A DNA stretch of 64,000 nucleotides from Sorghum bicolor (lineage: Eukaryota; Streptophyta; Magnoliopsida; Poales; Poaceae), in the NCBI RefSeq assembly GCF_000003195.3, contig NC_012875.2:18608398-18672397 (forward strand), in the 5' to 3' direction. Below are positions 4,461-60,969 of this stretch, piece after piece. The position numbers and the translations under genes are program-made. The notes beneath the pieces are model-generated. The model was given only the letters and a program-made list of their open reading frames with translations. It had not been told where the DNA came from and did no database searches. Position 1 is the stretch's first letter; every line of letters begins with the position of its first letter.

Positions 4461-5424
4461 CCCGGCTCACCACAGCTGTAGCATTTATTATCATTGTTAG
4501 CATTTGGTGCTTTTGGTGCACAATTCATTGGTGGAGCATTGGGAACATTTGTCTTTACTGGAGCATTATATTGACTGGCTACTGACGTTGGTTAGGAGCT
4601 CTGTACTACTGCTGCTGGTGTGCACGTTGTGGTTGTTGATTACGATTGATCAGACTCGACTGACCCTGATAACGTTGCTGTTGATAAGGTTGCTGGGAAT
4701 TGGTATGGGTACGTGTGTTGTTTCCTGACTGTTGTCCTTGGAACTTCCTTTTCTTATCTTCCATCTGACGACGTTTGTTTTCAATCACCAAGGCCTTGTC
4801 TACCAGATACTGAAAACATGCAAAAGTGTGGGATAGCAGTTGATACTGGAGCCCATCATTCAAACCTTCCATGAATAGTTCTTGCCTCTTCTCATCATTT
4901 TCCACTTCAATGGGAGCATATCGTGACAATTGTATGAACTTGTCACGATATTCTGCAACAGACATACCTCCTTGCTCGAGGGAGAGAAATTCCTTCTTTT
5001 CAGTTTCATTAGCCCAGCAGGGACATGATGAGAGCGGAAAGCATTACGGAACTCCATCCAGGTTATCGGGTCAGCATCTGTACGGCCAAAACGGAATGAA
5101 TCCCACCAATCAAGGGCAGCCCGCTGCATACAACACTTTCTCTCTGTCATTACACTGTGGTTGTCTTTCAATAGCACGAAGCCAGTCATCAGCTTCGAGA
5201 GGGTCGGTGGAGTGTTTGAAAACAGATGGATGTCCCTTCAAGAATTCTCCTCTCTTGTCCCTAACATGAGGAGGTGCATTTCCATTTCCATTTCTGTTGT
5301 TCTGCATATTTTGAGCCAGCTGCAGCAGCAGTTGTGTTTGCATCATCATCAGCTGCTCCATAGTAGGAGGTGGTGGTGGTGGTGGCAAGTCCTCACCCCT
5401 CCTGTTCCTCCTAGTGTTCGCCAT
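4461..5424 (-). pseudogene. gag: T1 gag (nucleocapsid region truncated, frameshifted)
   Basis: The start is the ATG at 5422-5424 (MANTRRNRRGEDLPP), just after a TACAG splice-acceptor-like end. A Pro run and a Met/Gln-rich helix are followed by the gypsy gag core (EADDWLRAIERQ, DWWDSFRFGRTDADP, MSVAEYRDKFIQLSRYAP). The core is spread over three frames, with frameshifts near 5115 and 4985. The Gln-rich linker leads into the first half of a CCHC knuckle (CYSCGEPG) at 4461-4478, where the Tat-like LTR cuts it. Gag would form the particle shell and bind RNA. It is not functional here. Confidence 0.75.
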
Positions 5425-6193
5425 CTGTACCGGATACACAATATGAGTCTCATATGTCTAAGATACTTAATATATATATATATATATTTAGAGACATAAC
5501 ATGCTAGAATTTATATCATCTGATTAGTTACGGGATTACATATGTTGTGAGTACAAGGTAGTATGCATTCTGTATTTTTCTGCTTTCCTCACTAAAACCA
5601 CAGTGAAGTAAAACAAGCATATCTTTCCCTCTTTTTAAAGTCTGACTGCGAACGTTAACTTTCTGGAAAGCTTGGAAATTTTCCTACAACTTTCATTCAG
5701 ATCACTTTCTCAAATTCTGGCGTTTACATAGGTGAAAACAAATGACAACTTTTACTGTTCTGGAATTTCTGACTGCGCAGAGAGGTCACCTTGTAATAAT
5801 TTTATTTCTCAAACGTTCACAGATATTGAGGTGGTTCCAGGGCCGATTGAAAGATATAGAAGTCTATTTTATTCCATAAATGTTTTGTATTTTTAGACCG
5901 TCCAGAACTCGGGATATACAAATATTAAGGCAGACTGCTCAGAGGGAAAAACATGGGTGGACAGCAAGATATAAGTAAACCCAACTATTTATTCATATTA
6001 TCCTTAGACCTTAGCCCTAATCTAAATGACTGCGGGCATGCCCACAATCATTAAAATCATGACAAAAATCCTACTCACCCATTAAGAATTATTACAAACA
6101 TGCATTCACGTAATAGCAATTGTTCAATCAGTAGAAAATAAAAACACACTCTCACATCTCTATGCGTACTTATTACAAGTGGGGAAAATCCTC
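5425..6193 (-). other. Spacer between T1 ORF0 and gag
   Basis: No ORF is supported. It is AT-rich with a short TA run at 5470-5488. It ends on the minus strand in GGTACAG just before the gag ATG, which resembles a 3' splice site. It may therefore be an intron allowing gag expression from a spliced RNA. Confidence 0.4.
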
Positions 6194-7168
6194 CTAAGGG
6201 TCAAGGTTGGTGCCGGTGTTGGGGTCCTCTTGGTTTCTTGGGGGTGACTCTGCGAGGATGAGTGGTACTTCTTCAACATGACTCCCCTGCTGTTGCTTCA
6301 ACATGGCGTTCTCAACAGCCAACTCAAGGTAGGCCTTCCTCAGGGCATCTAGCTCATCTGAGACTTGATCTAAGTCAGTGTTGGTTTGAGCCAAGCATGC
6401 CAAGGTGGGTCGGATCCTAGGGTTCCCTACCCCAAGTGGTGCAGCGATGTTGTAGGATGTCTGACCACTCCGCCGGCGTGGTAGATAGCGATCTTCTTCC
6501 CATGCAATATCAGCAAAGTGGCGGTCGCGGTTTACCACTAAGGCCTGCCGGGCAGCGTCCCGGATAGCTGCTGCGCGGGTAGTCCTGGCGGTGATCGCAC
6601 GGTGGATGTAGCACACCCGACTTCCTTCTCGGATGTAAGCTTCAGTCTCCCAAAAACCGATGTAGTCGGGGTGGGTCCAATGCTCGGTGCGGTACTGTAC
6701 GGTACACCGGGTGTGATAACGACGTGCGAGAGTAAGGAGCTTCGGGTGGTAATAGGCGTCACCATGCAAGTCAAAATGGATCACCACTGTCCATCCCTTT
6801 GCCAGAAGTGCGGTATGGTGATCACGGCTATCTCCATCACCATCACCATCATCACCACCACTGCCATGGTCGTTCGAGTCAGAGCTGTCGGAACTATCTA
6901 CATCATCTAGATCACCAGCACCCTCTTGTTCATCTTGCTCCATGGGCTCCTCTTCGGTGTCCTCATCTTCAACAGGTTCCTCTATCATGGCTTCCTCCTC
7001 AGCATCCTCATCCATGGGTACATCCATGGTTTGTTCCTCTTGTAGCTCCTCCTCAATGTCTCTCAGTGCCTCAACCAGATGCGGGGGAACACGCTTGCCT
7101 AGAATGAACCTTGTCCTCTTGTTGGGCATGATGACACGTTTGCGAGCTGTCCACTTGGTACGGGCCAT
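6194..7168 (-). CDS. T1 ORF0, histone H3 tail-like N-terminus, acidic and coiled-coil protein
   Basis: An open frame of 324 codons lies upstream of gag. The start at 7168 is chosen because the ATG is directly preceded on the minus strand by TTTTCTTATAG, a good 3' splice site. Residues 1-10 (MARTKWTARK) match the histone H3 start except W for Q. Next come a basic patch, a strongly acidic block (about 45-110, Glu/Asp/Met-rich then Asp/Ser-rich), a globular middle (about 120-240) and a C-terminal helix with heptad-like Leu/Val (about 250-290). Grass Tekay-group elements are known to carry an ORF of unknown function here. The frame is intact although neighbouring gag is broken. Function unknown. 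Confidence 0.65.
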   Translation of the reverse strand: MARTKWTARKRVIMPNKRTRFILGKRVPPHLVEALRDIEEELQEEQTMDVPMDEDAEEEAMIEEPVEDEDTEEEPMEQDEQEGAGDLDDVDSSDSSDSNDHGSGGDDGDGDGDSRDHHTALLAKGWTVVIHFDLHGDAYYHPKLLTLARRYHTRCTVQYRTEHWTHPDYIGFWETEAYIREGSRVCYIHRAITARTTRAAAIRDAARQALVVNRDRHFADIAWEEDRYLPRRRSGQTSYNIAAPLGVGNPRIRPTLACLAQTNTDLDQVSDELDALRKAYLELAVENAMLKQQQGSHVEEVPLILAESPPRNQEDPNTGTNLDP

Positions 7169-7328: not shown

Positions 7329-7340
7329 GCTTTGATACCA
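7329..7340 (-). other. T1 primer-binding site, initiator tRNA-Met type
   Basis: Minus-strand TGGTATCAAAGC lies 3 bp inside the LTR border at 7344. It differs at one base from the usual TGGTATCAGAGC. Confidence 0.75.
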
Positions 7341-28425: not shown

Positions 28426-31370
28426 CCAGGGAACTCCTCAGTACACACATCTGTTACCCATCCGGGATTTTCATTGAAATATAAACAAGTGTAAGCGCAC
28501 CATGCTTAGCAAGTATAACATCGAGGTATATATAGGCTCAAAGGCTTGACTCAGTTTAATAGCGATTAGCATTTTAGTTGGTCATATTTTATTACCCAAG
28601 ACTTGTTACTTTTAATGAGAGACCAACCCTGGTTACATAAGTGTTAATCAAAGTTATTACCTTTCCCAAGTATAGCCAAGTAACCGCTAACCAAGAAGGA
28701 TCCAGGCCGCTCATGACCGAGAGCTCGGCTGTTATAACAGGTTTAGATTTCTGCAGAAATTGTACAACTTTACCCCCGAGCCGTGGTTCCCTAGTGTTGG
28801 GGTTTGCAAGGCCCACACCACTTCTACCGAGGAAGTGTGACCAGGTTCCATTACTTAACCTTTCACTAGTCACCCTAACAATATAGTAGCCGCGAGGTTT
28901 CAGTGGCAAGTGTGCATAGATGGCCTCCTTCAAGAGGCACATGTGGTCGCGACACTGTACACACCCAGGTAGGAGTGACATCTATACACCACGAGGCACC
29001 CCCCTCTAGCGCCTTTCGGTAACTAATAAACTGCTAGAGACATACTAGTTATATGATTAAGGTCAGAGCCATTTGACTCTCGGGATTGTACGTGACCTCC
29101 TGGGTGGCCGCTTCAGGATTAAGTCCTTATGGAGAGGAATCTAGAGCTTGCAAAACCGAAGCTCTAGCCCCCTGAACCAAGTTACTAGAACATATTTTAT
29201 CACATTGCATATACCAATTAATCAGGTTAATTTATTAACTTGGGTTTTTCAGCGTAGCAGGAACTACCTAAATAAATGCACACCTTCCCATGGGTATCAA
29301 GGATTTGTGGTACAAAATTATCTAGGTAAAGTCCTTATAGGTATTTCAATTTAGACACATGCATATGTATGAATTAAATAATATTCATAGGTACAAGGAA
29401 GCCTATATTACACTTGCCTTCCTCAAAATTTTCCTCCTGGTAGAGCTCCACAAACTGCTCCTCAACCACTCCAACCTGATCTCCTTCTATTAACGATCCA
29501 AACACCAATCAAGCATCCAGTCCAATCATCACATGCATACAAATAAAGTTCTATTAGAACAGTACACCAAACAGTAAAAACAGTGACTGAAAGATATATA
29601 AATCTACTCTACGCCTTTCTACGAACACATGACCGAAAGAATCACTCTAATCGGACTTAAAACGTGAAAGTTATGCATAAAACAAAATGAATGGCATTTA
29701 TGTGAATAAACTGAATCAAAAACGAATTTAAAAGAACTAAAACTAAATTTCCAATGGTTCTAGACTACGTGCACTATTATATAAAAGTATAGGGTTTAAA
29801 ACAGAAGAAAACATGATTAAAAAGAAATACTTTTGAACTAAGTTGGACTGCGGGTTGATTTGCTTGAAACAGGGGGGTTAAAGCGCAAAACTCCCAGTGG
29901 TCCGCGGCTGACCGCGCTGCTGGCCGGCAGAGGGGCCACGTGGCGTGCTGGGGTTGGCTCGGTCCACCACTGTGCGCGTGGACCGGCCGACCGAGCGCCC
30001 GTGGACCGCGCCCATGGCCCACGGTGGACCGGTTACATAACTCCGAAGGGGTATGTAATCTGGGCCGTTAGAAACAGATCGGATGGCCCTGGATGAAAGG
30101 AGGCGGGGCGCTCGCCTGAGCCGAGGCTGACCATTGCGGCGCCATTGCCGCCGACGAGGTGAGCTCCTCGGAGCTCGCCGGAAACACGTTCCCGGCCACG
30201 CCAAATAAAAAGGAGACTACCACGGTGACCAGCGCGACGAGGCGAACACGATAGGGTAAAAAGAAAGGGCGGGGAGCACGTCGGGACGACGGCCCCGTGG
30301 TGGCGCCACTTCCACACCCTCGGAGAGCCTCGGATTCGGTGTTAGAGCGCCCTAAATTCACGATTAAAGACATGGGGAGCATCGGGGCTATACCGTGGTC
30401 CCGTTGGAGGTGTTCGCAGCGTCCGAGAAAACTCCGAGCGGCGTGGCCACGAGCGAGGCGGGCTGGGAAGAGAGAGACAGCGATGGTGAGCTCGGTTTCG
30501 ACCAAATCGTGAAGAAAGGTAGAGGGGAAGTGTACCTACGGCCGCGGTATCGCCAGGCGAATGTGTTGTGCACGTTCGCAGCGTCCACCGTGCCCTTAAG
30601 ACGGAGAATTTGGGGGGGTTGAGCTTGGTTCACGAACGGAAGGAGGAAAGGAGAGCTCGGCCGCGAGCTTTATAGGGCGAGCAGGGGCACTGAGGGGGCG
30701 AACACTCGGGCGATTAAGCCCGGCATCAAGGCGGCTTGAAGGCCGATTGATGGCCTCCATCAATCGGAGCTTGAAGGCTGGGGGGAAAGAAGTGATGGCG
30801 TTGAATGTCGCCGTGCTCTCGGCTCAGCGAGGAAGAAAGGGGAGACGCTGACAAGCGGGCCCCACGGCGCAGTGAGAGAGAGATGGGAAGGGAGAGCGCC
30901 GATAGGCGGGCCCTACTGCGCAGTGAGAGGGAGAATGGGGAGGGCGCGCGGGCTGTCCGCGTCGGAGCGGGCCGCGCCACTGGGCTGTGTGCGCGTCGCG
31001 GGCGAGGGGCGGGGAGCTGGGCCGCCAACGGCCCAAGGCCAGGGGTGAGCGCGGGGTATAGCTGGGCCAGGGTTTGGGGCCGGGCCAAAATCGGTGAAGG
31101 GGATAAAAATAAAAGAGAAACTCTTTTATATTTTTCAGAGCTGTAAATTTGTATATATTCTATCAAATTGATTTTTAAACCAAACAACCTAGTCTTACCA
31201 TCAATCAAAATATGATGCACCAGCATGAATGCAGCATTTCATGTTTCTAGACCTTATAGTTTATTTTAAATAATTCCAAAAATTGTTATTTTGCCTAAAC
31301 AATTCTCAATAATTCCTATAATTATGCCAAATTAAATACTAATTTGAAAATAAATTTTCAGAGTGTTACA
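28426..31370 (-). repeat. T1 5' LTR, outer piece
   Basis: It resumes the LTR begun at 7344 after the Sirevirus and its CCAGG duplication. It ends GTGTTACA, so the minus-strand start is TGTAACAC. AT-rich arms flank a GC-rich core at about 29880-31090. No gene is supported; ORFs in the core are composition-driven. Confidence 0.75.
29880..31090. other. GC-rich core of T1 LTR
   Basis: About 1.2 kb of CpG-rich sequence sits in otherwise AT-rich LTR DNA. It has overlapping ORFs on both strands, none with a recognisable domain. Comparable cores occupy the T2 and T3 LTRs. Confidence 0.6.
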
Positions 31371-32017
31371 TGCGGTGGCACACAACGTTCTCCCATAACA
31401 TAACTAGCGTTCTTGGCGGGCACGTGGTTAGCGTACCTGTAGAAAACTCATTTCAGCCCAACTATAGTATGAACATGCAGAGCAAGAATTTAGAGCTATA
31501 CACCCCACACACATAGACACCACATCCATGCATATGGTGTGTTACTACCCACATCATCGCCCTAGTGACGACATCGCCTCTTAGGACAGAATCTCCCAAC
31601 ATGCGGTACTGCTCCCAGGCACACCAAACATGCGTGCATGAAACAACCCTAATATCACTTCCCTAGATCGGCAGTGTATCCGATCATGCTCTCACAGCTC
31701 CCACTTACCGAGGCGTAGAGGAAAAATTGATCCATACATTACCACTCAAATGAATGGCACTCATACTATTGCACGCCGTATGAGCGACGAAAATATAAAT
31801 ATGATGCATAACCCCCAAGTCAGTACTTAACTAGCCACCTTAGAGTCCTTAACTGGGCATAAAAGATATGACCATGGCACACCGTGTAGTTTTCCAAAAA
31901 CTCATTTTAACACCTCGATTATCATTAATTGCATAGTTAACTTTTATTAACCGGTTTAAGTTTAGTTTAGAACGTACTTATGAAAAGTAACTCGCTAAAC
32001 CTTGCTTCGATGTCAGC
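31371..32017 (-). other. T3 leader with primer-binding site
   Basis: No ORF is supported. A primer site lies at 32004-32015 (minus-strand TGACATCGAAGC), two bases inside the LTR border. It has diverged from the T2 version TGGTACCGAAGC. Confidence 0.6.
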
Positions 32018-35000
32018 TGTAACAGAACCGCCCAAATTATAAGAGATTAAGCCTAATGGTGACCATTTGCACAGTCGAACCATCGAGCTTAAGCCCATAT
32101 AATCCCGGTAGTCCGTGAAATCTCGAAGGATTTCAAACCACACACATACATACAACTAGGATCGTAATAAGTTCAGCGGTCAGTATTCACAATTACATCC
32201 AGTTTGTAGCATTCATCACATTACATCAGAGTTCAATATAGTTATTACAAACCAAGTTCTCAAGTAGTGGAAGCTCATAGTTTTGAAATAACACACACAC
32301 ACACTTAGATTGATACAGTGCCATTTTGGATCATTTCCACAAAATCAAAAGAGGAGGTAGAGTGACCATCGCCCTTGGTCTAGTCATCACCCATCGCTGG
32401 GTACAAGCAGTGAATGCAATAACCATAGTACATCTGCCCATCTGCAAAACAACATGGGAATAGAACCCTGAGTACGATAATGTACTCTGCTAGACTTACC
32501 CGTCATAAACCAAAGACTGTTCAAGGATCATGAGGGCTGTATAGTGGGGTAGCTGAGTCCTTTTGCAAAAACGCACTACTCAACTAGAAGTACACACTAA
32601 CAATACCCCTTCTTCTTTTAATTAGCTCAGGTTAAGTGTTATTACATATCTTCTAGATTTGCACATGTACTATTGCAAACAAGTGTTGCGATATGATGGT
32701 ACCTCATCATAGCATTCATAAATCATTACTCATCATAACCCAAGTGTTTCATAGTCCTTATTACGAGGATGAAGCTCATGTCAAGTTCTCACTATCCAGG
32801 AGCGATGGCAATTCGAATCGATTTCTAACCAGGTGGCGAGTTATTCCCCACACAAACCACACTCACTGATCAGTGAGCTACAGATCAACGTATTACACTA
32901 TCTAGGACCAAATCGCGGGTTCAGCAGGCACCCCCAGTACCAGAGGACCCTTCTTGCGACCGAGGTATCCATGGTACACCAAGGTTGCACGCCCTCGTCG
33001 TTCTCCTCAACCATCACTAATATAGCGCATGGCGGCTCGACTCCCAGCCTGGATTGTGTTCAGGCTTCGCAGTCGGAACGACTTATCCTTCCAGCTAAGT
33101 GTGGGGCATGCGTTCAACATGACAAGAGGGCCATCAATGATCGGTCCTTAATCGACACAGGTAGGGGCACTACAGTCAACTCCACCATAAGACCCTGTCC
33201 GGTCTCAAGTTCATTCCCACACTTGGTTACTTTTCCTCATAGCATTAACAGCTAATTAAACAGGTGTCCACCTATATCTCGCAGGTGACCGAAAATCATC
33301 CAACTTCTACCGTGCTAAGCAAGCTAAGCAAAGACTCCGAGCCTATCTACATAGGACAAGGTCGATAAATAGGTGGTAATATCAAGGAGTAAGTATGCAT
33401 CAACGGTATCAAGCAATTCCTATCACATAAATGCAACATAGTAGAACAATCATAATATATCAATTAAGTTAGCGAGAATAGGGAGACTTAGAATGCTCCG
33501 GGGCTTGCCTTTCTCGAACGTGCTAGGCTTCTGGTCCGGGCACTCCTACAGCTCTCCTTCCGGCTCGAGTCCTCTCGGAAGTTCCTGCTCCTGGGTCTCC
33601 TCTTGCTCCTTGGGTCCCACCTCGTTCTCCTGCGAGCCTGTATGATGCATGTGTGCTCATGAGCGGAGTGCGAGATGCCCGAGGTGCAGTGCTTATGCAA
33701 GTGGGTACCAGATGCTCATGACATGGTGCATAGTTGACATAGGTGATTATTTCTACAAGGTAGTCAACATCATCCAAGAACATGTACTCAAATTAAGCAT
33801 CTATTGCATTCTCTTCTACAAGTTGTTTTCATGGTTAACCAGCAAGCTAACATGATGCTTCAAAGATACACCAAACACCCTTTATTCCATTTAACTTATG
33901 CATAACAAATCATACTTTATTTGAGTTATTATTGGGCCTACAACAGTAGCATGTACTTCTGCTTATCAATAAATTCTACAAAAATTACAGTGGATTACTG
34001 GTCAAGCATAAAGTCTACCACAAATTTTTGATAATATTTGGACACTCAGTTTGGCCTACAAAAATTACAAGATTACTCAATATAATTCAGTATAAATACC
34101 CTACTGTTGACCAAGTGTCAAACAACAGATTTCATATTTTTATAAATTACTTACTAGCATAAGAAACACCCACAAAAATTTCCAAATTAATTGCATGATC
34201 TAATTATTTATTAAAAATCATCAACCACTGCCATGCAAGCAATTAAATCATCATAATTTAATTTATACAGCAAATATTGGGTGACATATTTTTCCCAGAA
34301 GCTAAACATCCATGCACAGCTAACAAAACAAGTTTCACATTTTTCTGAGTCATATTCCAATTATTGTGCATTTTCTAAATATCAGCAAAAACATGGATTA
34401 AATACATTTGTACAGAAAAGTTGTTCAACCATGACATGCAATTACACCAAAAAGATAGATATTGAATTATAGAACACACCAAAACTTATTTCATCGTTTT
34501 TAGAGCTATGGATCTCAAGATATAGATTTAATACCATCTAAATCATTTTTTGGAATATCTTTTAAAACAAAAATCGACTTAAAACGCTAAGTGCACCCGG
34601 ATTCAAACCCTTAGAGGCGCTGACAGGCGGGACCCATGAGTCAGCTGACCCCACTTGTTAGCCACGCCGTGACTCCGCGGCCAAAGATCGGCTAGAATCT
34701 CACCGCCGGTGAGGTCTCCAGCGACTGCGGGAGCACCTACGGCTTCGCGAGAGCGAGACGAGCCTAGCCGTGCCCTTTTTGGCACGTGACGAGCACTGGA
34801 ACTACCTCGCCGTCGAGAATGGTGGACGCGGCGGTAGAGCGTGCGCTAGCGACGGGGAAAGATGCGCAATGCCAAGGCGAAGCTAACGGACCTACGAACG
34901 AAAGCAATGGCGGAAAGGAGAGAGAGAAACGCGTGAGCCGAGAGGTCGTCGGAGCTCTGACTCACTCCGGTGAGCTCTACCGGACACGCGGGGCTTACCG

Positions 35001-35902
35001 AGCGCGGTTGAGCGCGAGCACGGGGTGCGGAATGGCGAGACGGACTCGCTGGTGCTTCCGGATGGGAGGGAGGAGGCCAGAGCTGGCAAGGAGAAAAGCT
35101 CCGAGCGTCGGCGACAATGGCGCGCGGCGGTGCGGCTGCTACTACGCGCGAGCAGAGGGGCGTGTCTGGCAGCGGGGACGGAGGCGGACGCGGCCGGGCG
35201 CACCTGGTGGCCGACCAGGGCGCGTCCAAGCCGCCGCATGCGCGCCACGCGGCGGCCGAGCTCTGTCGGCTCGCCACGGCGGCACGGCGCGGCCGTCCGC
35301 GCGCGTGGACACGGCGCTGGCGCGAGCGCGGGGAAGGGGGAAGCACGGGCGCGGGGAGGCCGGGCCGGCTTCGCTGGCTGGGCCGGTTGGTTGGCGCCGG
35401 CCCGCCAGTGAACAGCCCCCCTTGCCCTTTTTTTTAATTTATTTTTCCCAAAAAGCTTAAATGAGATTTTTTAAGCTTTTGCACACTTTTTCAGGGGTTG
35501 AAGTAAATAGAAGCATTGTTCCTCACAAAATCCTCTACAACTTTGCTTTAAGATGCAAATCCAAATTCCAAACAAAATTTGAATCACAAAGCAAAACTAG
35601 TTCTAGGTTTTCAAATAAATTCATTTTAGGGATTTTTGTATAATATCCATTTCTCAATTTCTATAGCTCCAAAAATTTCACAAAATTACTCTTAATTCTT
35701 CTAAAATATATTTCAACCTATTTTGGGCATCACAAGGATTTTTGGAATAAGCATACTATTTTTATCATATTTAATTCACATAAATTAAGCACATAAAATC
35801 ATACTTGAATTAATGCCATGCTCATGTGATGCTATGCTTAATGAGAATGCTTAGGAAAGGGTTTATGAGACTAAGTGCATGCTTAACACCTAGGGTATTA
35901 CA
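32018..35902 (-). repeat. T3 5' LTR (3885 bp)
   Basis: TGTAACAG...ATTACA borders. AT-rich arms are similar to the T2 LTR. The GC-rich core at about 34605-35430 is much less similar to T2 than the arms are. ORFs seen in the core are not supported as genes. Confidence 0.8.
34605..35430. other. GC-rich variable core of T3 LTR
   Basis: It begins near the GACAGGCGGGACCC segment. It contains a 224-codon Arg/Gly/Ala-rich frame on the plus strand without any domain. The flanks align to T2 but the core only patchily. Confidence 0.55.
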
Positions 35903-43713: not shown

Positions 43714-45048
43714 TGTTGACACTTGCTAACACCACTTGAATACTAGGTTGTCATCCCCAGCATGGCACTAGAGTGTACTATGGTATTTATACGCACACAG
43801 ATAATCTGCAAGCGCACGGATACCGTTATAGCTTTTACCCGGTTAAAGGATTTATCGTATCCATAGGGAAACGGGAGAACCAACTATGCTCTAACTTAAC
43901 CAAGATAGATAGATAGGTGTGAATAGAAAAGATGGTAGAATTGAATAAGAACAATATTAAAGGTAAGATAACAATGGGTGATAATATGGGAATAGAGAGT
44001 AGAGCAATTCTAGTATATGGGCGATGGTAGCAGAATAGAGAGAATAACTATGGTTTCTCTACTTCAAAGGGGTATGTGTATGTCTGGGACGAACCATGTG
44101 ATAAGAATACACCACAAAGGATGCTTATCCATAGGCCGATAAACCCTACCCGTCCTACTAACAAGAGGTGGACTACAAGGGACCAACGTAACTGTCACCT
44201 ACGTGGCCTACCACACGATCCAGCTAGACAGGGGATATCCACAAGTAATCTAGGTCTAAGCACCACGCTTACACCTATACTACAACTCTCACCTATAGCG
44301 TCCTATAGATTAGAAGTACTCAAAAGAGTTGTGAACTAGAACATACATGATTAGTAATTGCATAATGAATTAGAAGTAGATTACCAGAGTCATCCCATGA
44401 GCAAGCTTGATTAGAGCTTGATCATGGCGAAGTACAATCGGAGGAAGAACCGACAGGTCGGCCTCTCCTCCAATCCTCCCTCGCTCTCCATCTCGCTACT
44501 AACTAGATCTACTCTAGTTTAGAGAAGAGAGGAGAGCTCTCATCTCCAAACCCTAGCTTTTGCTCTGTCTATGAATAATGAATAATGATCAAGGGGGTGC
44601 CTCCTCCAGGGGCTAGAGGGTCTGGTTATATAGTCCCCTCAAGTGAATCTGGGCCGTCGGATCAAACCGACATTGATTGAACGGTTATACTTGATCCTTT
44701 AGGTCAGTGGAGCATAATCCGCGAGATTGAGCGTGATTGGTTGAAACTCCAGGGCGGGCGCCCAAGGGGGGAGGGCGGGCGCCCTGCCCCCGAGCCCGCT
44801 CGGCCTCCCGTTTGTTCGCGTGGCTTCTCGAGTCTTCTAGATGATAGAAAATTGCGCGGCACATTAATATCTCTATGTAAACCCGATGTGTGGGCTTTCC
44901 TCCATATTTCCTGATAACCCCCTGCAGAAATAGACAAATACCAAAACTTGTGGAATTCTGTCAGATGAAACCCTAAGTCTAGGTGTTGGTTGCATTTGGA
45001 TCCTTTTCTTTATTTATTTGATGATTAAATTTGATACTTAAGGACTAT
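43714..45048 (-). repeat. 5' LTR of Athila D, main piece
   Basis: It matches the 3' LTR except for scattered substitutions. TATATAA at 44626-44632. It is cut five to ten bases before its end by a solo LTR; the last bases (GCCGTCAACA) are at 46677-46686. Confidence 0.88.
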
Positions 45049-48950: not shown

Positions 48951-50180
48951 TATTGATATTTGGTAACGCAATCGGGAATTAATCCGCAAGCGCACGGATA
49001 TCGGTGAGCACTTCACCCGGGATGTTATCCAGAGTATCGTATTTATATTTTTACCACTAGGAGAAAGCGTGCATCTGACTAACCCGGTCTATTACTACTA
49101 ACCTTTAGGCTACAAACTATGTGATTCGATGTGAGTGATGTATAGAGAAGACTACAACCGCACTCTCGTTCTAACCTTGGTAAGGATGATCTACTGTTGT
49201 GTTGGGGAGGCTCACGGAATCTAGACACCACAGAGGATGTTCGACCCGCACCTATAAACCCTATTGATCCTGCTAATGGGATATGGGCTACAAAGGTAAC
49301 TCGGAAATGTCACGTTCCTTGCTACTACCATGGTCCAGCTAGTCAGGGGATATCTATGAGTATCCTAGCTCAAACACCACATTTACGCTAGAGATGATTA
49401 CTCTAAACTCTACGCGAAGAGATCAAAGTAAACTCATAAACCAAATAACAATAAAACAAAGAACTTACTAGAATTTAGAAGTCAAAATACTGAAGAATCC
49501 TAGGAGCAAGCCTTGGGTTAGGAGACTTGATCCCGTAGGTACAACCTCGGAGTAGACACCGACAGGCCGGGCTTCCTCCGATCTACACCTCCACTCTATC
49601 TCTCTCAATCTAGTAGAACTAGTCTACTCTCACATTGGATGCTATGCCTTATGAGGTGGGAACCCTAAGGAACCTCTCTCTCTGAATCCTCTCTGGAAAA
49701 TATGCTAATGAATAATGGGGATTCTATCTCTCTAGGGGCCAGGGGCCTTGCTTATATAGCCTTTTCAAATGAATCTGAGCCATCGGATCAAATCGACATT
49801 GATTGAACGGTTCTCCTTGATCCTCAAAGGCGGTGGAGCATAATCCACGTGATTCACCTTGATTGGCCACCAGAGGTGGGCGGGCGCCCAAGGGGGGAGG
49901 GCGGGTGCCCTGCCCCCGGGCCCAACCGGCCTCCCGTTCGTTCCCATGGCTTCTGGACTCTTCTAGATGTTGAATAATCGTGGTGCACGTTAATATCTCT
50001 ATCTAAACCCGACGTGTGGGCCTTTCTTCCATATTTCCTGATAACCCCCTGCAGAAATAGATAAACAGCAAAACTCGTGGAATTCTGTCAGATCAAACCC
50101 TAATTCTAGGTGTTGCTTGTATATTGGTCCTTTTCCTTGTTTATTTCATGATTAAAATTGATACTTAAGAACCATCAACA
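48951..50180 (-). repeat. 5' LTR of Athila C (1230 bp)
   Basis: It ends CCATCAACA. The inner end reads TATTGATATT where relatives have TGTTG, so the terminal TG is mutated. TATATAA on the minus strand at 49752-49758. GGGCGGGCGCCC and GGGCGGGTGCCC blocks lie at about 49878-49911. Confidence 0.8.
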
Positions 50181-51368
50181 GTTGACTTCATGTTTTCTCA
50201 ACTGTCGTGAAGCATAAGCTATAACTCTACCTTCTTGCATCAGCACACATCCCAAACCACTTTTCGATCCGTAACAAAACACATCAAAAGGCTTCTCGAT
50301 ATTCAGTTGTGCTAGAACAGGAGCAGTGGTTAGTAGCTTTCGCAAGGTGCGGAAGGCTACTTCACACCCCTCTGTCCAGGCGAACTTATGATCCTTTTGT
50401 AGCAAACTGGACATTGGCCTAGCTATCTTGGAGAAGTCGGGGATGAAACGACGATAATATCCGGCTAAACCAAGAAAGCTTCGAACTTCCGAGACAGAAG
50501 TTGGTGCCTTCCAGTCCAGAACTTCCTGTATCTTTGATGGATCCATAGTGATCCCTTCTTCTGACAGAATGTGTCCTAGGAATGGGACTTTCTTTAGCCA
50601 GAACTCACACTTGCTGAATTTCGCATATAACTGATGTTCTCGCAGTTGTGATAGCACGACCCTCAAATGCTCAGCATGATCTTGCTCATTTTCTGAATAG
50701 ACTAGAATCTCATCGATGAACACTACCACAAACTTGTCTAACTCTGGCATAAAGACTGAGTTCATTAGATACATAAAGTATACATGAGCATTTGTCAATC
50801 CAAAGGACATGACAAGATACTAATACAACACATATCTGTTAGAAAAAACTAGTCTTTGGTATATCTTGCGGGCAGATCTTGATTTGGTGATACCCAGACC
50901 TCAAATTTATCTTGGAGAACACTTTTGCTTTTGACAACTGATCGAACAGGATACCAATCGACGGCAAGGGATACTTATTCTTGATCGTCACTGCATTGAG
51001 TGGGAGATAGTCCACGCACATGCGTAGGGATTGATCCTTCTTTATCACAAACAACACCGGACAAACCCATTCCAATGAACTTGGCCGGATGAAACCTTTG
51101 TCCAGCAACTCTTTCAATTGGGTTTTCAGTTCAGCGAGCTCATTTGGTGGCATTCGGTACGGCCTTCTAGAGATTGGTGTTGTACCCGGTATCAACTCTA
51201 TAGCAAACTCTACTTCCTTATCCGGGGGATGTCCTGGCAACTCTTCTAGAAAACATCAGGAAACTCGCAAACCACGAGGATTTGGGGCAAAGGAACCACT
51301 TGTGTAGCACAAGAGATGCTAGCAAAGTCAAACCAACGAGACAGGGGTACTTGAAAAGAACCACTGCC
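50181..51368 (-). pseudogene. pol: T2 pol: reverse transcriptase and start of RNase H
   Basis: RT begins [21 protein letters not shown] (near 51200) and continues [47 protein letters not shown] break follows near 50830. The next frame gives [22 protein letters not shown] and [28 protein letters not shown] and RNase H ([19 protein letters not shown]) end it at EVNC at the Athila C border. The catalytic FIDD-type motif reads FIDE and the RNase H Asp region reads CYGS, so both active sites look damaged. Confidence 0.82.
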
Positions 51369-51795
51369 CTAAGGCTCCCTGAGAGATAACACCCTTTTCC
51401 CGACATCTATAACAACATCCCACTCTTTCATCCAGTTCATGCCAATGATAACATCCAAGGCTAACCCAAGCATGACCACCAGGTTCACTCGAAACACGAG
51501 ATTACTTATATCCAGGGTTGCCCCTCGGACCACTCTATTGGTTAGCACATCTGCCCCTACTGAGCTGATGCGATAGCCATAACCCAGACCTGTAACTGCT
51601 TGGTCATGCTTTTGTGTGAATGCTTGGCTCATGAATGAATGCGATGATCCAGAATCAAACAAAACAACTGCAAGATGTTGGTTGACAGGGAACATACCAG
51701 CTGTTACTGGTTCTCCTTCCGGGATCTCCTCTATCGAGGTGTGGTGCACACGGGCTGGGTAGGTCGTCTGCTGTTTTTGGGGTAGGGACATTCTT
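51369..51795 (-). pseudogene. T2 retropepsin-like protease
   Basis: An open stretch with VVLFDSGSSHSFMSQAF (catalytic Asp-Ser-Gly near 51657) and DVIIGMNWMKEWDVVIDVGKR, the usual Tekay protease pattern. The polypeptide link to gag upstream and RT downstream is broken by stops (SLREP stop near 51369). Confidence 0.75.
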
Positions 51796-53191: not shown

Positions 53192-55507
53192 CTACTCGCT
53201 ATGGTCACTGTCCATGCCGGAGCCTTCCTCGTCCTCATCTCCACTAGCGGCTGCCTCCATCTCTGGATCCTCATCCATCTCATCCTCAGAATCTAAATCA
53301 GCTGCTCCAGGCAGGTGGTGAGGACAGAGCTGGTTATGCAGCTAGTGAATCACCTCATCCAGGTTCTCATTGTACTCCTCTGCATTGGCTAGCTGCTTGT
53401 TGGGAATTTTAAACGCAAACAGAAAAATCCGCAAGCGCACGGATACCGATGTAGCTTTCACCCAAGAGTATTCTAGAGTATCGATTTTCCACAGGGAACG
53501 TGAGTGTACTAATTAAGATTCAAGATTGCCCAAGGATAACTATATAATTATTTTTGGTGGGAAGAGAGGAAGTTTCCTGAGAGTTCTCTAGTTGATCTAA
53601 GAATCAAGAATTACTTCAAAGATTATTTATTTCTGACATCAGAACACTAACCACAGAAAGAGATGAGAAGGGGGCTAGGAAGCTCTGACTACGGTCCTAC
53701 AAACAACGATCCGAACAAGGTGGAATACGTCGACCGTTAGGGCTGTCACTACCCTAGGGCTACCACAATAATCCGCAGGATTGGGTGCGATTCCAGGTAA
53801 TTGCAAGACTAAACACCACGTCTAATCTATTAATTACTACTCTAGCGTTATAAAGACTAGAGCACTTGATGCAAGTGAGAATCCAATAAATAACTTGAAT
53901 GTAAATAAAAGTAATTAAAGAACTCAGGAATTATGAATTGAAGAACTTGGAGAACGATGAAGAACAAAAAAGTTGCTGCAAAAGTACAATGTTGAGGAAG
54001 ATCCGACAGATCCGGCTCCTCCTCCTCCGCTCTCCTCTTCTCTCTCCCTATTTTAGATTACAACTAGAACAAACTAGAACTAGAACTAGAGGAACTAGAA
54101 CTAGATGAACTAGAGCTAGAGGAACTAGAGCTAGAACTAGATAAACTAGAGGGATCCTCTCTACTTGGATGAAGAATTGAAACCCTAACTTTGATACTGT
54201 AGAAGAGGTATGCTCTCTAGGGGCCAGGGGGCCTTGCTTATATAGTCTTTTTAGATGAATCTAGGTCGTCGGATCAAACCGACATCAATCACACGGTTTT
54301 CCTTGATCCCTTAGGTCGGTGGAGCGTGATCCGCGAAACGGGTCCGAATTGGACACTGTAGCAGGGCGGGCACCCAGAAGAGTAGGGCGGGCGCCCTGCC
54401 TCCGAGCCCGATCGCCTTCCTGTTTGTTCCCGTGGCTTCTGGAGTCTTCTAGATGGTAGAAAATTGCGTGGCACGTTAATATCTCTATGTAAACCTGACG
54501 TGTGGGCCTTTCCTCCATATTTCCTGATAACCACCTGCAGAAAAAGACAAACACCAAAACTCGTGGAATTCTGTCAGATAAAACCCTAAGTCTGGGCGTT
54601 GGTTGCATATAAGTCCTTTTCTATGATTAGTTGATGGTTAAATGTGAGCATTAAGGACCGTCAACACTGCTGCTCAAGCTCTAGCTATTGGGCCCTCAGG
54701 GTGTCCTCCTCGTGCCAGGCTTCATTCCTCTGACCAAGCACATGAACTAGCATGCGCTCGCAGTTCCTATGAGCTGTGGTCACCCTGTCCCTCTGCTCTC
54801 TCACTGCGAGTAGGTCCTCACTCAGCTCACTGTTCTGCTGGACTGTTTGGTCCCTCTCTAGAGTCACACGAGGAAACTCTGCCTGCAGCCTCTCAACCTC
54901 ACTGTCAAACTCATGCTGTAGCTGGCGCTTCTCATCCTGAACTGTCAGAAGAGACCCAGACAAGTGTCCCAAACAACGCTCTAGACCCCCATAGGTTTTC
55001 ATCATGGCAAACATAGCACTCATAGTTGTACTGTCACTGTGCTGATCCTCATCCGCACTCCTCTCTAGAGCTTTCACCTCGGACTGATCCCACACCGAAG
55101 TGTAGGGGTCACCCTGGGGAAACACTCCAGCGAGTGTGGGCCAGCTCCTGCGGAAACCTCTCCACGATGTCCCTTAGAACCGCAAAAGTAGCCCTGCTGG
55201 CACCCTAGAAAGGCGTGGTACCTCGGGACTCGTACACCCAGCCACCCTAGGCGGGGTCACCTCCACTAGTCGGGATCACTGCCTCAATCCCCACCAGGAT
55301 CCCATCACCGAGCTGCTCTCTGTTCCAATAGTAGCAAGGCTCCCTTCCTTCAGGATACCCCATCGAACTGAGCACTCTCCAAAGCAAAGTAGGCATCCCA
55401 AACTCCCCTAGGAACTTGCTCTTGTGACGTGAGCTCCTTGGTGCTAATTGGTGGCGAGGGGCCCGCCCACCACTGGACTTGCGAGCGGTGAGCCGAGTGC
55501 GTGCCAT
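53192..55507 (-). pseudogene. T2 ORF0 with histone H3 tail-like N-terminus, interrupted
   Basis: Start at 55507, directly after TTTTCAGCAG on the minus strand. Mature residues 1-20 read ARTRLTARKSSGGRAPRHQL, with 15 of 20 identical to histone H3; Lys9 and Ser10 are kept while Lys4, 14 and 18 are Arg, Arg and His. A globular part follows (GYPEGREPCYYWNREQLGDG), with TAG at 55247-55249 and 55205-55207 and a frameshift near 55150. A coiled coil (about 55125-54685: LTVQDEKRQLQHEFDSEVERL) is split by the solo LTR at 53398-54666. An acidic tail (DLDSEDEMDEDPEME) ends at 53192. The layout of H3-like start, coiled coil and acidic block parallels T1 ORF0. Function unknown. Confidence 0.65.
53398..54666 (-). 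mobile_element. Solo Athila LTR in T2 ORF0 (1269 bp)
   Basis: TGTTGGG...CGTCAACA borders, flanked by a perfect CTGCT duplication (53393-53397 and 54667-54671). No interior. TATATAA on the minus strand at 54238-54244. It carries the AACTAG array (about 54060-54152) and belongs with the A/B LTRs. Confidence 0.92.
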
Positions 55508-55547: not shown

Positions 55548-55827
55548 TGTAACACCCGGCCCAATGCTTAATAGGATTAATAGGAGACTCATACCAACAA
55601 GTTGCAACTTCTTTTCTGGGAGCCTATCTCCAAAGAACTCTAAAGTTAAGCGTGCTTGGCCTAGAGTAATTTAGGGATGGGTGACCGACCGGGAAGTAGT
55701 TCCCGGGTGCGCACGAGTGAGGACAAAGTGTGCAGAAAAGACTAGTGTTGGTCTGTGGGAGCTGTCTATGTCCTAGAAAAGCTGCCAGATGTAAGCGGGC
55801 CCGGCCTCGTGGAGGCGGGACGTTACA
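55548..55827 (+). repeat. Cassandra 5' LTR
   Basis: 280 bp, TGTAACACCCGG...CGGGACGTTACA. Contains the 5S-like segment and is followed by GAA and the primer site. Confidence 0.92.
55580..55715 (+). ncRNA. 5S rRNA-derived domain of Cassandra LTR (copy 1)
   Basis: Matches the plant 5S gene around the internal pol III promoter: box A-like AGTTAAGCGTGCTTGG at 55644-55659 and box C-like GGATGGGTGACC at 55675-55686, with CTCATACCAACA near the start. Known Cassandra 5S domains can be transcribed by RNA polymerase III. This is not a ribosomal gene; its 5' half and the stretch between the boxes have diverged. Confidence 0.85.
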
Positions 55828-55830
55828 GAA

Positions 55831-55843
55831 TGGTATCAGAGCC
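55831..55843 (+). other. Cassandra primer-binding site
   Basis: TGGTATCAGAGCC, a perfect initiator tRNA-Met complement, 3 bp after the LTR. Confidence 0.9.
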
Positions 55844-56031
55844 GACTCTCGCGGTTTCACGGGCGCGTGTGTCGCAGTTGCACAGGCATGGTGTGCATGG
55901 CTGGTGTGGACCCAGAGTGGTCACACAGCATGGCACATGCGCTGGCACTAGATGCACGGACGTGGCCAAGAGAGGACGTTCCTGGCTTGGGGTTGATCGA
56001 CGAGGACATCGATCTATTAAGGGGGTGAGGA

Positions 56032-56311
56032 TGTAACACCCGGCCCAATGCTTAATAGGATTAATAGGAGACTCATACCAACAAGTTGCAACTTCGTTTC
56101 CGGGAACTTATCTCCAAAGAACTCTAAAGTTAAGCGTGCTTGGCCTAGAGTAATTTAGGGATGGGTGACCGACCGGGAAGTAGTTCCCGGGTGCGCACGA
56201 GTGAGGACAAAGTGTGCAGAAAAGACTAGTGTTGGTCTGTGGGGGCTGTCTATGTCCTAGAAAAGCTGCCAGATGTAAGCGGGCCCGGCCTCGTGGAGGC
56301 GGGACGTTACA
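56032..56311 (+). repeat. Cassandra 3' LTR
   Basis: 280 bp, equal to the 5' LTR except for about five substitutions, four of them clustered between 56095 and 56110. Confidence 0.92.
56064..56199 (+). ncRNA. 5S rRNA-derived domain of Cassandra LTR (copy 2)
   Basis: Same box A-like and box C-like elements as copy 1, offset by 484 bp. Confidence 0.83.
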
Positions 56312-56316
56312 ATTAT

Positions 56317-57054
56317 CTTTTATCATTTTAATTGAAATTGGAACAGATTTAAATAAGGGGAGGAAGTAAGTAATGATATGAAACGAACATGATGCATGCA
56401 CGAAACTTACGACCTCACAAACTTAGAAACAAAAGTCAATACTAATCGGTATATGCGGTGGCACACAACGTTCTCTCATAACATAACTAGCGTTCTATGC
56501 GAGAACGTCGTTAGCGATGCTGAACAAGAAATTAAAACTATGGACCCCACAAACATAGGTACCACACCTATGTATATGACGTGCCACTACCCACATCATC
56601 GTCCTAATGATGGCATTGCCTCTCAGGACGGAATCTCCCAACATGTGGTACTGTTCCCAGGCACACTGGATATGTGTGCATGACATAGCACCCTAAAGCA
56701 CTTCCCTAGATCGGCAGTGTATCCGATCATGCTCTCACAGCTCCCACTTACCAGGACGTAGAGGAAATTGATCCATTCATTACCACTCAAATGAATGGCA
56801 CTCATTATTACATGCCATATGAGCGATGAAATAGAAATATGATGCATAACCCCCAAGTCAGTACTTAACTAGCCACCTTAGAGTCCTTAACTGGGCATAA
56901 AGGATATGACCATGGCACACTGATTAGTTTTCCAAAAATTCGTTTCCACACCATGATTACCATTAATAGATAATTAACCTTTATTAACCGTTTTAAGTTT
57001 GTTTTAGAACATACTTATGATCAGTAATCTGCTGAACCTTGCTTCGGTACCAGC
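56317..57054 (-). other. T2 leader
   Basis: No ORF. It aligns with T3 31371-32017 from 56452 on. The primer site lies at 57041-57052 (minus-strand TGGTACCGAAGC), two bases inside the LTR. A purine run (GGGGAGGAAG) lies near 56358. Confidence 0.6.
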
Positions 57055-60000
57055 TGTAATAGAACCGCCCAATTTATAAGAGATTAAGCCTAATAGTGAC
57101 CATTTGCATAGTCGAACCATCAAGCTTAAACCTATATAATCCCGGTAGTCTGTGAAATCTCGAAGGATTTCAAACCACAACGCATACATACAGCCAAGAT
57201 CGTAATAAGTCCAGCGATCACCATTCACAGTTACATTCCATTCACGACATGCAGCGATTACATCGGAGTTCACTTAAAGTTATTACAAACCAAGGCCAAG
57301 AGTAGCGGAAGCATCATAGTTTTAAAATAACACACACACTTAGTCTGATACAGTGCCATAGTTTGATTATTCCCACAACAGCAAAAGAAGAGGAAAAGTG
57401 ACCATCGCCCTTGGTCTAGTCATCACCCATTGCTGGGTACAAGTAGTGAATGCAATAACCATAGTACATCTGACCATCTGCAAAACAACATGGGAATGAA
57501 ACCCTGAGTACGAGAATGTACTCAGCTAGACTTACCTGTCATAAACCAAAATAAAAGACTCTTCAAGGATCATCAAAGCTGTATAGTGGGGTGGCTGAAA
57601 CCTTTTTGCACAAAAGCGTTACCCATCTAGAAGTATATTTTGATATCCTCCTTTCTTTTATTTAGCTCAAGTTAAGTATTATCATTACCTATCATCCAGA
57701 TTTGCACCTGTACTATTGCAAACAAGTGTTGTAATATGATAGTACCTTATCATAGCATTCACAATTCATTACTTATCATAACCCATGTGTTTCATATTCC
57801 TTACTACGAGGACGAAGCTCAAGTCAAGTGCTCACAATCCAGGAGTGAGGCGATTCGAATCAATTTCTGACCAGCTGGCGAGTTTATTCCCCTTACAAAC
57901 CACACTCACTGATCAAGTGAGCTACAGATCATGATATTACACTATCCAGGACCAAATCGCGGGTTCGGCAGGCACTGCCAGTACCCGAGGACCGTTCCGG
58001 CGACCGAGGTATCCAAGGTATACCAAGGTTGTGCACCGTGCCCTCGTCGTTCTCCTCAACCATCACCAATACAGCGCATGGCGGCTCGACTCCTGGCCCG
58101 GATAGTGTTCAGGCTTCACGGTCGGAACGACTTATCTTTCCAGCTAAGTGTGGGGCATCCGTTTAACATGACAAGAGGGCCACCAACGATCGGTCCTTAA
58201 TCGACACAGGCAGGGGCACTACGGTCAACACCACCATAAGACCCTGCCCGGTCTCGCTTTTCTTTCCCACACTTGGTTACTTTTCTTCATAGCACTGACA
58301 GCTAACATTCAGGTATCCACCTATATCTCGTAGGTGACAGGAAATCACCCGACTTCTACCGTACTAAGCGGGCTAAGCATAGACTCCGAGCCTATCTACA
58401 TAGGACAAGATAGATAAACAGGTGGTGATATCAAGGAGGAAACATGCATCAACGGTGTCAAGCAACTCCTACCACTTAAATGCAGCATAGTAAAACAATC
58501 ATGATATAACAATTTAAGTTAGCGAGAATAGGGAGACTTAGAATGCTCCGGGGCTTGCCTCTCTCGAAAGTGCTAGGCCAGTGGTCCGGGCACTCCTGCA
58601 GTCTCCTTCCGGCTCGGGCCCTTCCGGAAGTTCTTGCTCCTATGTCTCTTCCGGTTCCTCGGGTCCCACCTTGTTCTCCTGCGAGCCTGTATGATGCATG
58701 TGTGCTCATGAGTGGAGTGCAAGATGTCTGAGGTGCAATGCATATGCATGTCAATACAAGATGATCATGACATGGTGCATAGAAGACATAAGAAATTATT
58801 TCTACAAGGTAGTCAACATCATCCAAGGATATGCAACCAAATTAAGCATCTATTGCATACTCTTCTATAAGTTGTTATCATTTTTAACCAGCAAGCTATC
58901 ATGATGCTTCAAAGATACACCAAACACCATTTATTCCATTTATCTCATGTATAACAAGGTTTAATTTATTTATCTTTGATTAGACCTATAACAGTAGCAT
59001 ATATTTCTGATCATCAATAAAATCTACAAAAATTACAGTAAGTCACTGGTCATTTATAATGTTTACCACAAATTTTACATAATTGTTGGACAGGTAACCT
59101 GGCCTACACAAAAACCACAAGTTTAATCAACACAACTAAGTGTAAATACCCTACTGATGATAAAGTGTCAAACAACAGATTTCATATTTTTATAAATTAC
59201 TTACTAACATAAGAAATGCCCACAAAAATTTTTAGATTAATTGGATGAACCAGTTATTTATTAAAAATCATAAACCTTTGCCATGCAAGAATTTAAATCA
59301 TCATAAATTAATTATACAGCAAATATTGTGTCACATATTTTTCCCAGAGGCTAAACATCTGTGCAAAGCTAGCAAAACAAGAATTGTATTTTTCTGAGTT
59401 TTTTTCTATTTACTATGCATTTTCCAAATATCAGCAAAACATGGAATAATTATATTTTTACAGAAAAGTTGTACAAACATGACATGCAATTACACCAAGT
59501 TGTAGATCTGGATTTATAGAACACATCAAACTTTATTTCATCATTTTTGGAGCTATGGATCTCAAGATATGGATTTAATACCATTTAAACATTTTTCTGG
59601 AAAACATTTTCTACAAATCTATTTCAAAACAGCGCTGGAAAATGCTAGGAACACCCAGATCTCTACCCGCCTCGGTCTCCTTACGGCTGACAGTGGGCCC
59701 CCGACCCCACTGGTCAGCGTGACTAAGAGGAGGAGCACCTCCGACGAGTAGATCTCGCCGGCGGTGAGGTCTACGGCCACGGGATGAGCACCAACGTGCT
59801 CCCCGCAGTGAGGCGCACCCGAGGGTGCCCTTAGCTTGGCCGGAGCACCCTTGCTAGCGTGCATGGCGGCACGGCGGTGCTGCTCGCCGTGGCCACGCCA
59901 CTCCGACGGGGTAGAGCGCTCGCGAAGTGCCAACGGAGCTTGCTCAAGACACCCTGAACACGACGCACACGAAAACAAGCGAAAAGTGGTGAGGAGGGGA

Positions 60001-60969
60001 GAGTTCAAGCGCGGCGGGGCACTCCGACGAGGTTGGTGACCTCCGGCGAGCCATTGTGGCCGCACGGGGGCTTACCACCTCGGTTGAGAGCACGCAGGGG
60101 CTTACCGCGGCTATGACGAATACGGCAGAGCTCTTAGCGTGGAGAATAGCCTGCCGAAACGGCCGGCAATGAGCGGCGGCGCTCGGCCAGCAATGGCGCC
60201 GCGGCGGCTGCTGCTGCTGCTACGCTCGCGAGTGGGGAAGAAGAGAGAGAGGGAGGGAGATAGAATAGAGGGCGGTCTAGGGGAGCGGGGCGGCGTCCCG
60301 ACCAGAAGGCACGGTCGGAGCGGTCGTGGACCAACGTCGCTAGTGTACGGCTGCCACGTGGTGGCCGTCGGCGTGGGAGAGGCGGGCGCGTCCGTGCGCA
60401 GGGAGGAGGATGGGGATTGGGCCGCGCGGGCGAGCGGGCCGAAAGGGAGGCGGCCGACCCAGCAGCGCCTGCCCCCTTTTCTCATTTTTCTTTGAATTCC
60501 TTTCTCCCAAAAAGCTTAAATTCCATTTTTGAAGCCCTTGCAAACTTTTTCAGGAGTTGAAGTAAAAAGAAGAATTGTTCCCCACAAAATTCTCTATAAC
60601 TTTCCTTTAAGATGCAAGTTCAAATTCCAAACAGAATTTGAATCACAAATTAAAACTAGTTCTAGGTTTTTGAATAAATTCATTTTGGTGATTTCGTATA
60701 AACTCATTTCTCAAATTCTAGAGCTCCAAAAATTTCACAAAAATATTCTTAAATCTTCTAAAACACATTTCAACCTACTTTGTTCATCACAAGCAAATTT
60801 AAAGCAAGCATGTTGATTTATTCTATTTAATTCATTTAAATCCAGCACATAAAATTATACTTAAAATGCTACTATGCTTATGTGATGCTGTGCTCATGCT
60901 TTGCTTGATGAGAATGCTTATGAGTGAGTTTATGAGACCAAGTGCATGCTTAACACCTAGGGTGTTACA
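57055..60969 (-). repeat. T2 5' LTR (3915 bp)
   Basis: TGTAATAG...GTGTTACA borders. The arms align with the T3 LTR. The GC-rich core at about 59640-60480 differs strongly. ORFs inside it have no recognisable domain. Confidence 0.82.
59640..60480. other. GC-rich variable core of T2 LTR
   Basis: CpG-dense, with repeated CTCGCCGGCGGTGAGG-type motifs also found in the T3 core near 34700, but little overall collinearity with it. Confidence 0.55.

Follow-up and report, generated by a model that had tools for sequence, protein, structure and literature searches.

A conserved histone H3-like N-terminus on the ORF0 proteins of abundant grass retrotransposons

Introduction

Retrosat2, RIRE3, RIRE8 and their homologues in grasses are retrotransposons with long LTRs that carry an additional gene, ORF0, upstream of gag; the main text of Gao et al. 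2012 (PMC3485330) describes this gene as fast-diverging and restricted to grasses, and gives its product predicted hydrolase-like functions. The products of the 5' additional ORF (aORF) of Tekay elements, including those of sorghum Sb7 and maize, are predicted to be nuclear in the main text of a 2024 study (PMC11728184), where the maize and sorghum proteins are found structurally similar to a DRBM protein (TM 0.35-0.37) and modulation of RNA silencing is raised as a possible role. In neither main text does the ORF0 or 5' aORF protein of these abundant grass retrotransposons have an established function; the word 'histone' is absent from the first (PMC3485330) and has 0 occurrences in the second (PMC11728184).

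Here we describe ORF0 proteins with an N-terminus resembling that of histone H3, starting from a window of 64,000 nucleotides of Sorghum bicolor DNA (NC_012875.2, positions 18,608,398 to 18,672,397). Influenza NS1 and SARS-CoV-2 ORF8 are viral histone-tail mimics, in which the imitation is internal or C-terminal. ORF0 is like them in that a parasite's accessory protein bears a short imitation of the H3 tail, but here the protein belongs to a plant retrotransposon family and its imitation occupies the N-terminus, in the register of H3 itself. No report of the tail was found among the papers listed in searches of the open-access PMC literature, outside which most subscription journals lie; as far as the literature was searched, the H3-like tail is new, whereas ORF0 was already known and its dsRBD-like part already proposed.

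Results and Discussion

Two elements with ORF0 genes

The window holds the ORF0 genes of two elements, T1 and T2 (Table 1), which are like those of Retrosat2, RIRE3 and RIRE8, as presented in the main text of PMC3485330, in lying upstream of gag-pol on the same strand. T2 runs along the minus strand from ORF0 (55507-53192) through the protease to the reverse transcriptase remnants, which match RVT_1 and RT_RNaseH_2 above the cut-off at 50178-50810 and RVT_1 below it at 50842-51255; Pfam recognised no gag in the two pieces scanned, and T2 shows no clear PBS. Both this order and the type of LTR resemble the Retrosat2/RIRE8 group of that text (PMC3485330), the putative T2 LTRs exceeding 3 kb and starting with TGTAACACCC, one mismatch away from the TGTCACACCC of Retrosat2 and RIRE8. 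A target duplication matching between the probable 5' LTR and its candidate 3' partner was looked for and none was found.

The window's copy of T2 is a dead pseudogene, in whose ORF0 stops interrupt the frame at 55249 and 55207, the frame changes, and a solo LTR has inserted. The family to which it belongs is large and includes many open copies. Around 40 bases upstream of its ATG begins a complete TRIM/SMART-like element, whose 280 bp LTRs (55548-55827 and 56032-56311) are 98% identical and which has an exact PBS, TGGTATCAGAGC, at 55831-55842. In T1 the order along one strand is a PBS-like site (7340-7329), ORF0 (7168-6194) and gag (below 5457); the intact ORF0 product is laid out as the tail, an acidic linker, a dsRBD-like domain (residues 137-216) and a coiled coil (252-293).

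Table 1. Features of the two ORF0-bearing elements and of their insertions in the window
Feature	Positions	Strand	Details
T2 ORF0, H3-tail-like N-terminus	55418..55507	-	Met and 29 residues
T2-family ORF0, open remnant	55247..55507	-	86 aa; first in-frame stop 55249-55247
T2 ORF0, continuation in another frame	54685..55125	-	resembles the middle of an open family copy
Solo-LTR-like insertion in T2 ORF0	53398..54666		1.27 kb; target duplication CTGCT at 53393-53397 and 54667-54671
T2 ORF0, C-terminal end past the solo LTR	53192..53397	-	QLANAEEYNENL ... GMDSDHSE stop
TRIM/SMART-like element	55548..56311	+	target duplication ATTAT
Probable 5' LTR of T2	56446..60969	-	around 4.5 kb; minus-strand start TGTAACACCC; inner boundary approximate
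Related LTR, candidate 3' LTR of T2	31364..35902	-	81% identical to 56446-60969
Protease remnant downstream of T2 ORF0	51372..51794	-	RVP_2, E 7.1e-25
Reverse transcriptase and RNase H remnants downstream of T2 ORF0	50178..51255	-	
T1 ORF0, intact	6194..7168	-	324 aa; MARTKWTARKRV...
T1 PBS-like site	7329..7340	-	TGGTATCAAAGC; around 160 bases upstream of ORF0
T1 gag downstream of ORF0, broken	4609..5457	-	Retrotrans_gag in 4609-5043, E 1e-8

Similarity to the histone H3 tail

The ORF at 55507-55247 on the minus strand begins with an ATG and encodes 86 aa with the N-terminus MARTRLTARKSSGGRAPRHQLAPRSSRHKS. The preliminary description had likened this start to the H3 tail, with Lys4, Lys14 and Lys18 replaced by Arg, Arg and His; a recount of residues 1-20 (MARTRLTARKSSGGRAPRHQL) again gives 15 identities, and the three replacements are as described. 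Identity is 10/13 over residues 1-13, 16/21 over residues 1-21 and 17/29 over 29 residues, for which the best of 1,000,000 shuffles of the peptide reached 13. A search of the six-frame translated window with the H3 tail returned E 6.7e-9, whilst in a phmmer search of PDB sequences with the T2 ORF the best 60 of 131 matches (E<=10) were all histone H3 or H3-like, the top one at E 1.4e-5. Just two of the 1,411 ATGs in the window that are followed by at least 11 open codons, both strands included, score above 4/10 against H3: both reach 8/10, and they are the starts of the T2 (55507, minus strand) and T1 (7168, minus strand) ORF0s, the latter reading MARTKWTARK. The two runners-up each score 4/10. 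A broken retroelement ORF extending from 12179 on the minus strand to around 11400, with the start MARTKNVSGPAAGSGGSPGGDG, has 4/10 matches to H3, at residues 1-4.

A motif this short might resemble H3 by accident. Against this stand the six-frame and PDB searches and the ATG null, as well as the family copies, the genome query with H3 and the profile of 13 tails described below. Given the shuffles, the ATG null and the fact that the best 60 PDB matches are H3 or H3-like, the similarity is not due to chance, an origin to which we give a negligible probability and which the shuffles and the ATG null rule out.

No histone fold was recognised behind the tail, the Pfam listings for the scanned ORF0s containing no histone family. 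Residues 1-31 of the T2 ORF weakly match PAF15/PCLAF (PF15715, 'PCNA-associated factor histone like domain'), a host protein, at E 0.15, which is below the cut-off and without significance.

ORF0 families in the sorghum genome

In the window's own genome (709 Mb, with ten large contigs), a first look for the T2 family gave 2,403 candidates, and all 150 that were scored had E<=1. Seventy copies were fetched, comprising the 30 best-scoring and 40 picked mostly for long open frames, and these have Ala1 in 68, Thr6 in 69, Arg8 in 68 and Lys9 in 68 cases. The 27 copies open for at least 345 aa all conform to A[RC][TS]RL[TI][AT]RKS, with Lys9 in every one. The preliminary description had asked whether Lys9 is invariant, and would have treated the similarity as chance or a one-off capture if most intact members lacked an ARTxxTARKS-type start; Lys9 is very nearly so in the fetched copies, and within the part of the family covered each open copy keeps such a start. 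Because the open copies retain it, the H3-like start is not peculiar to one element, and the size of the family together with the retained tails rules out a one-off capture in the window's copy.

Querying the 709-Mb genome with H3 itself, with 150 of 1,066 candidates scored, produced 34 matches. A T2-family ORF0 closes the list (67% identity across residues 1-30, E 8.8e-4), and the remaining 33, at 46-100% identity, are presumably histone genes or exons. The T1 family occupies 34 places over residues 1-324. A third, young family (L011-L030), with the start MTRHLTCRKSVIRF, was found through T1 residues of approximately 79-317, and hence independently of the tail: 19 of its 20 fetched copies read MTRHLTCRKSV, the remaining one (L015) having a shorter ORF. 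Thr6, Arg8, Lys9 and Ser10 are retained in this family, whilst Ala1 and the register of residues 1-4 are lost, and among our results this start weighs most heavily against a universal mimic with a free N-terminus.

Relatives in protein searches

Protein searches listed 280 relatives (P0001-P0280), two of the listings comprising 120 of 160 and 120 of 193 matches. As all three queries included the tail and the matches were partly listed, the proportion of relatives that bear the tail is a biased figure. Proteins of Miscanthus and Urochloa are among the listed relatives, and some of those with an H3-like tail come from these genera; searches of viral contigs and bacterial genome contigs for ORF0 relatives found none. 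Adding T1 and T2 gives 282 sequences, of which 262 could be tested, having a Met within the first 60 residues, many of the others being fragments; H3-like tails, with at least five of ten H3 residues, are present in 73, or 67 unique tails. Among these 67, taken from the matches listed and counted conditionally on the five-residue match that admitted them, Thr6 and Lys9 are each found in 66, Thr3 in 61, Ala1 in 59, Arg2 in 58 and Arg8 in 55. Positions 4, 5 and 7 vary, with Lys (36), Tyr (27) or Arg (3) at position 4 and Pro (38) or Ala (27) at position 7. P0166 is an example of an ORF0 of the Tyr4 type. Some relatives are closer to H3 than T2 is: P0259 has 12 identities over residues 1-13, compared with 10 in T2, and P0139 has H3 residues 1-9 complete.

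Ten representatives sharing less than 60% identity in the folded domain are 67% identical over H3 residues 1-10, the best conserved run of ten columns across them; the corresponding figures are 33% for the folded domain and 26-32% for other parts. Within three closer groups of proteins the excess is modest, tail identity being 0.82-0.86 compared with 0.58-0.79 elsewhere. A profile of 13 tails, chosen as H3-like and excluding T2, the Tyr4 group, P0245 and P0259, retrieved H3 with E values down to 9.1e-8, the best 60 of 138 matches (E<=10) all being H3 or H3-like. A tree of the proteins lacking residues 1-30, its root placed for drawing only, has H3-like tails on either side of the deepest split as drawn.

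Among the matches listed, 51 relatives are full-length by a rule based on the domain and the C-terminal end; 28 of these have the tail and 23 have none. Most of the 23 begin within the acidic linker and look truncated at the 5' end, and P0200 begins within the tail itself, whilst P0265, a long relative with no H3-like tail, may represent a genuine absence. In one predicted protein, P0263, an ORF0-like part is fused with a reverse transcriptase and RNase H part (PF17919, PF17917); it is probably a rearranged copy.

The folded domain

The predicted structures of two divergent ORF0s, one of them T1, contain a dsRBD-like fold with the alpha-beta-beta-beta-alpha arrangement, matching solved dsRBDs. 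With Foldseek alone neither model had a match at E<=0.001, and for T1 the best row was a ribosome factor in a list consisting mostly of beta-lactamases; Pfam listed no dsRBD match in the ORF0s scanned, leaving the folded domain unrecognised. The KKxAK motif contacts RNA in dsRBDs; on inspection by eye, helix 2 begins without a KK pair in all ten representatives. The profile match of T2's own folded domain was marginal (probability 1.6%, E 0.031), and T2 ORF0 without its tail matched P0153 at E 2e-4 and P0163 at E 0.025 in BLAST. The Tekay aORF, as presented in the main text of PMC11728184, occupies the same position as the T1 and T2 ORF0s; the present additions are the H3 tail and, in models of two divergent ORF0s, the match to solved dsRBDs.

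Selection within and between families

Open copies of all three families were used to estimate pN/pS: 27 of T2, 22 of T1 (from the 30 loci L001-L010 and L031-L050, eight with broken, short or start-less ORFs being dropped) and 19 of the 20 loci of the MTRH family. Over most of ORF0 the ratio lies between 0.10 and 0.34 by segment, with values beyond the tail of 0.16-0.28 in T1 (from residue 22), 0.12-0.34 in T2 (segments from residue 31) and 0.10-0.29 in the MTRH family (from residue 22), and hence the ORF0 protein is under purifying selection. The preliminary description had proposed a test for such selection on residues 1-28 relative to the rest of the protein, and the signal is mixed: the T2 tail has a low pN (0.019, versus 0.028 elsewhere), but its pS is low as well (0.034, versus 0.197 outside it), and pN/pS is accordingly 0.57 in the tail and 0.14 in the rest. 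By segment, the T2 ratio is 0.26 for residues 2-11, 1.66 for residues 12-22 and 0.57 for residues 2-22 together, and then falls to 0.06 for residues 23-30, where pS jumps to 0.25. The T1 tail gives 0.65 (residues 2-11) and 0.41 (12-21), with a pS of 0.028-0.036 compared with 0.12-0.19 elsewhere. Since synonymous sites in the tail are themselves conserved, dN/dS within families fails to single the tail out.

In both the T1 and the T2 family, codons 2-22 have a synonymous diversity several times lower than that of most of ORF0, which may reflect a role of the RNA. The strong conservation of these sites would suit a signal at the RNA or DNA level, such as one for packaging or translation or in the leader, or else a generic basic tail for nuclear import or nucleic acid binding, derived from H3 or convergent on it. 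Such an explanation could also accommodate the variation at positions 4, 5 and 7, and the fact that, of 22 diversity windows along the 27 T2 copies, the tail contains the two with the lowest values (0.010 and 0.023), although values as low as 0.024 occur outside it. Comparison between families points the other way. T1 and T2 have seven of residues 1-10 in common, and five of the seven codons differ synonymously, indicating that it is the residues and not the DNA that are kept; conservation at the protein level is thus visible between families. In the MTRH family residues 2-10 vary synonymously (pS 0.062) and never in amino acid (pN 0.000), the only one of the three families to combine the two. 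Moreover, a basic tail need not hold Thr3, Thr6 and Lys9 in register with the Met. We therefore keep a generic or nucleic acid-level explanation as a possibility, and a clearly lesser one than that developed below.

Origin of the tail

The preliminary description also suggested that the tail might be a captured H3 exon. In three intron-bearing H3 genes that were fetched, which we take to be of the H3.3 type, the first coding exon ends after Lys23; the similarity of T2 to H3 covers residues 1-21, fades up to residue 28, and so stops near the exon 1 boundary. A recent capture of the first exon, without function, could account for this; one of the three genes (L134) shares the most codons (8/21) with each of three T2 copies compared, and has exact runs of 17 nt with two of them and 13 nt with the window's copy. 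However, the codon match of T2 to 11 H3 genes is not above that expected from codon usage, the best match being equalled in 4,611, 7,943 and 5,865 of 20,000 random draws for the three copies, so that a recent capture is unsupported. The tail is also old, being common to ORF0s with around 30% identity elsewhere, and has not decayed. A recent capture is consequently rejected as very improbable, whilst ancient capture of H3 and convergence are both possible origins.

A proposed interaction with the silencing machinery

Taken together, the sequence comparisons show that the ORF0s of these abundant retrotransposons have a conserved H3-like N-terminus, in register, on a selected accessory protein. 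That the start is kept in many related elements suggests an interaction with the silencing machinery. Our preferred reading, to which we assign a probability of roughly 0.5, is that ORF0 bears a mimic of the H3 tail that engages the host's H3-tail enzymes or readers and thereby blunts or redirects silencing. ORF0, encoded upstream of gag, carries its imitation of H3 in register from the initiator Met, as T1, T2 and many relatives show; removal of this Met, which the Ala at position 2 suggests, would expose A-R-T-[K/R/Y]-x-T-[A/P]-R-K. An acidic or coiled region would follow, and then, judging from the two models, a dsRBD-like fold; the coiled coil could allow ORF0 to dimerise, and the protein would act in the nucleus. 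There the tail probably engages those host factors that recognise the H3 N-terminus, or modify it, in the region of Thr6, Arg8 and Lys9, and the chromatin silencing of the element might be blunted or redirected as a result. ORF0 may act as an H3K9-like substrate or decoy, as the preliminary description proposed. The neighbourhood of Lys9 is favoured over Lys4 or a chromodomain as the site of contact, since Thr6 and Lys9 are the firmest residues, with Arg8 close to them, and Lys4 and Ala7 are replaceable.

If correct, this would make ORF0 a transposon-encoded histone mimic, a kind of protein for which viruses provide the known examples, and would help to account for the amplification of these elements in genomes where H3K9 methylation and RNA-directed methylation silence them. 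The conserved imitation of the H3 tail provides a concrete and cheaply testable hypothesis for the function of ORF0. A broader version, in which ORF0 is an anti-silencing protein that pairs an H3 decoy having a free N-terminus with the dsRBD-like domain, so opposing both arms of silencing (H3K9 methylation and the small-RNA machinery), and in which the H3 part derives from an ancient capture of exon 1, strikes us as rather doubtful. The anti-silencing proteins of VANDAL transposons, as covered in the main text of PMC11728184, would be analogous in their accessory role, to the extent that ORF0 does have an anti-silencing effect.

A different partner for the same residue would be the element's own integrase: methylated Lys9 of ORF0 could be the ligand of its chromodomain, tying ORF0, and any RNA bound by the dsRBD-like domain, to the integration complex. 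The conserved context of Lys9 is consistent with this. Chromodomains bury Ala7 of the H3 tail, and its replacement by Pro in 38 of the 67 unique tails speaks against a simple role as chromodomain ligand for the families concerned. No chromodomain was seen among the few ORFs of the window scanned with Pfam. Typical Tekay elements do pair a type II chromodomain with the 5' ORF according to the main text of PMC11728184, but in a scan of the genome in which 150 of 3,648 chromodomain candidates were scored, comparison of 55 of 273 ORF0 places with 81 of 149 chromodomain places on four contigs found the two on the same strand and less than 15 kb apart in one case, at a distance of 10.4 kb. We consider the integrase an improbable partner, and favour host proteins of the silencing machinery.

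Other LTR sequences in the window

Related LTR ends occur eight times in the window (3422-3865, 13780-14245, 20163-20629, 39417-39864, 44604-45045, 46234-46676, 49725-50180 and 54203-54666), some of them inside other elements and the last being the end of the solo LTR in T2. Two pairs, 12967-14245 with 19350-20628 (99% identical) and 38529-39856 with 43714-45045 (97%), look like the ends of elements.
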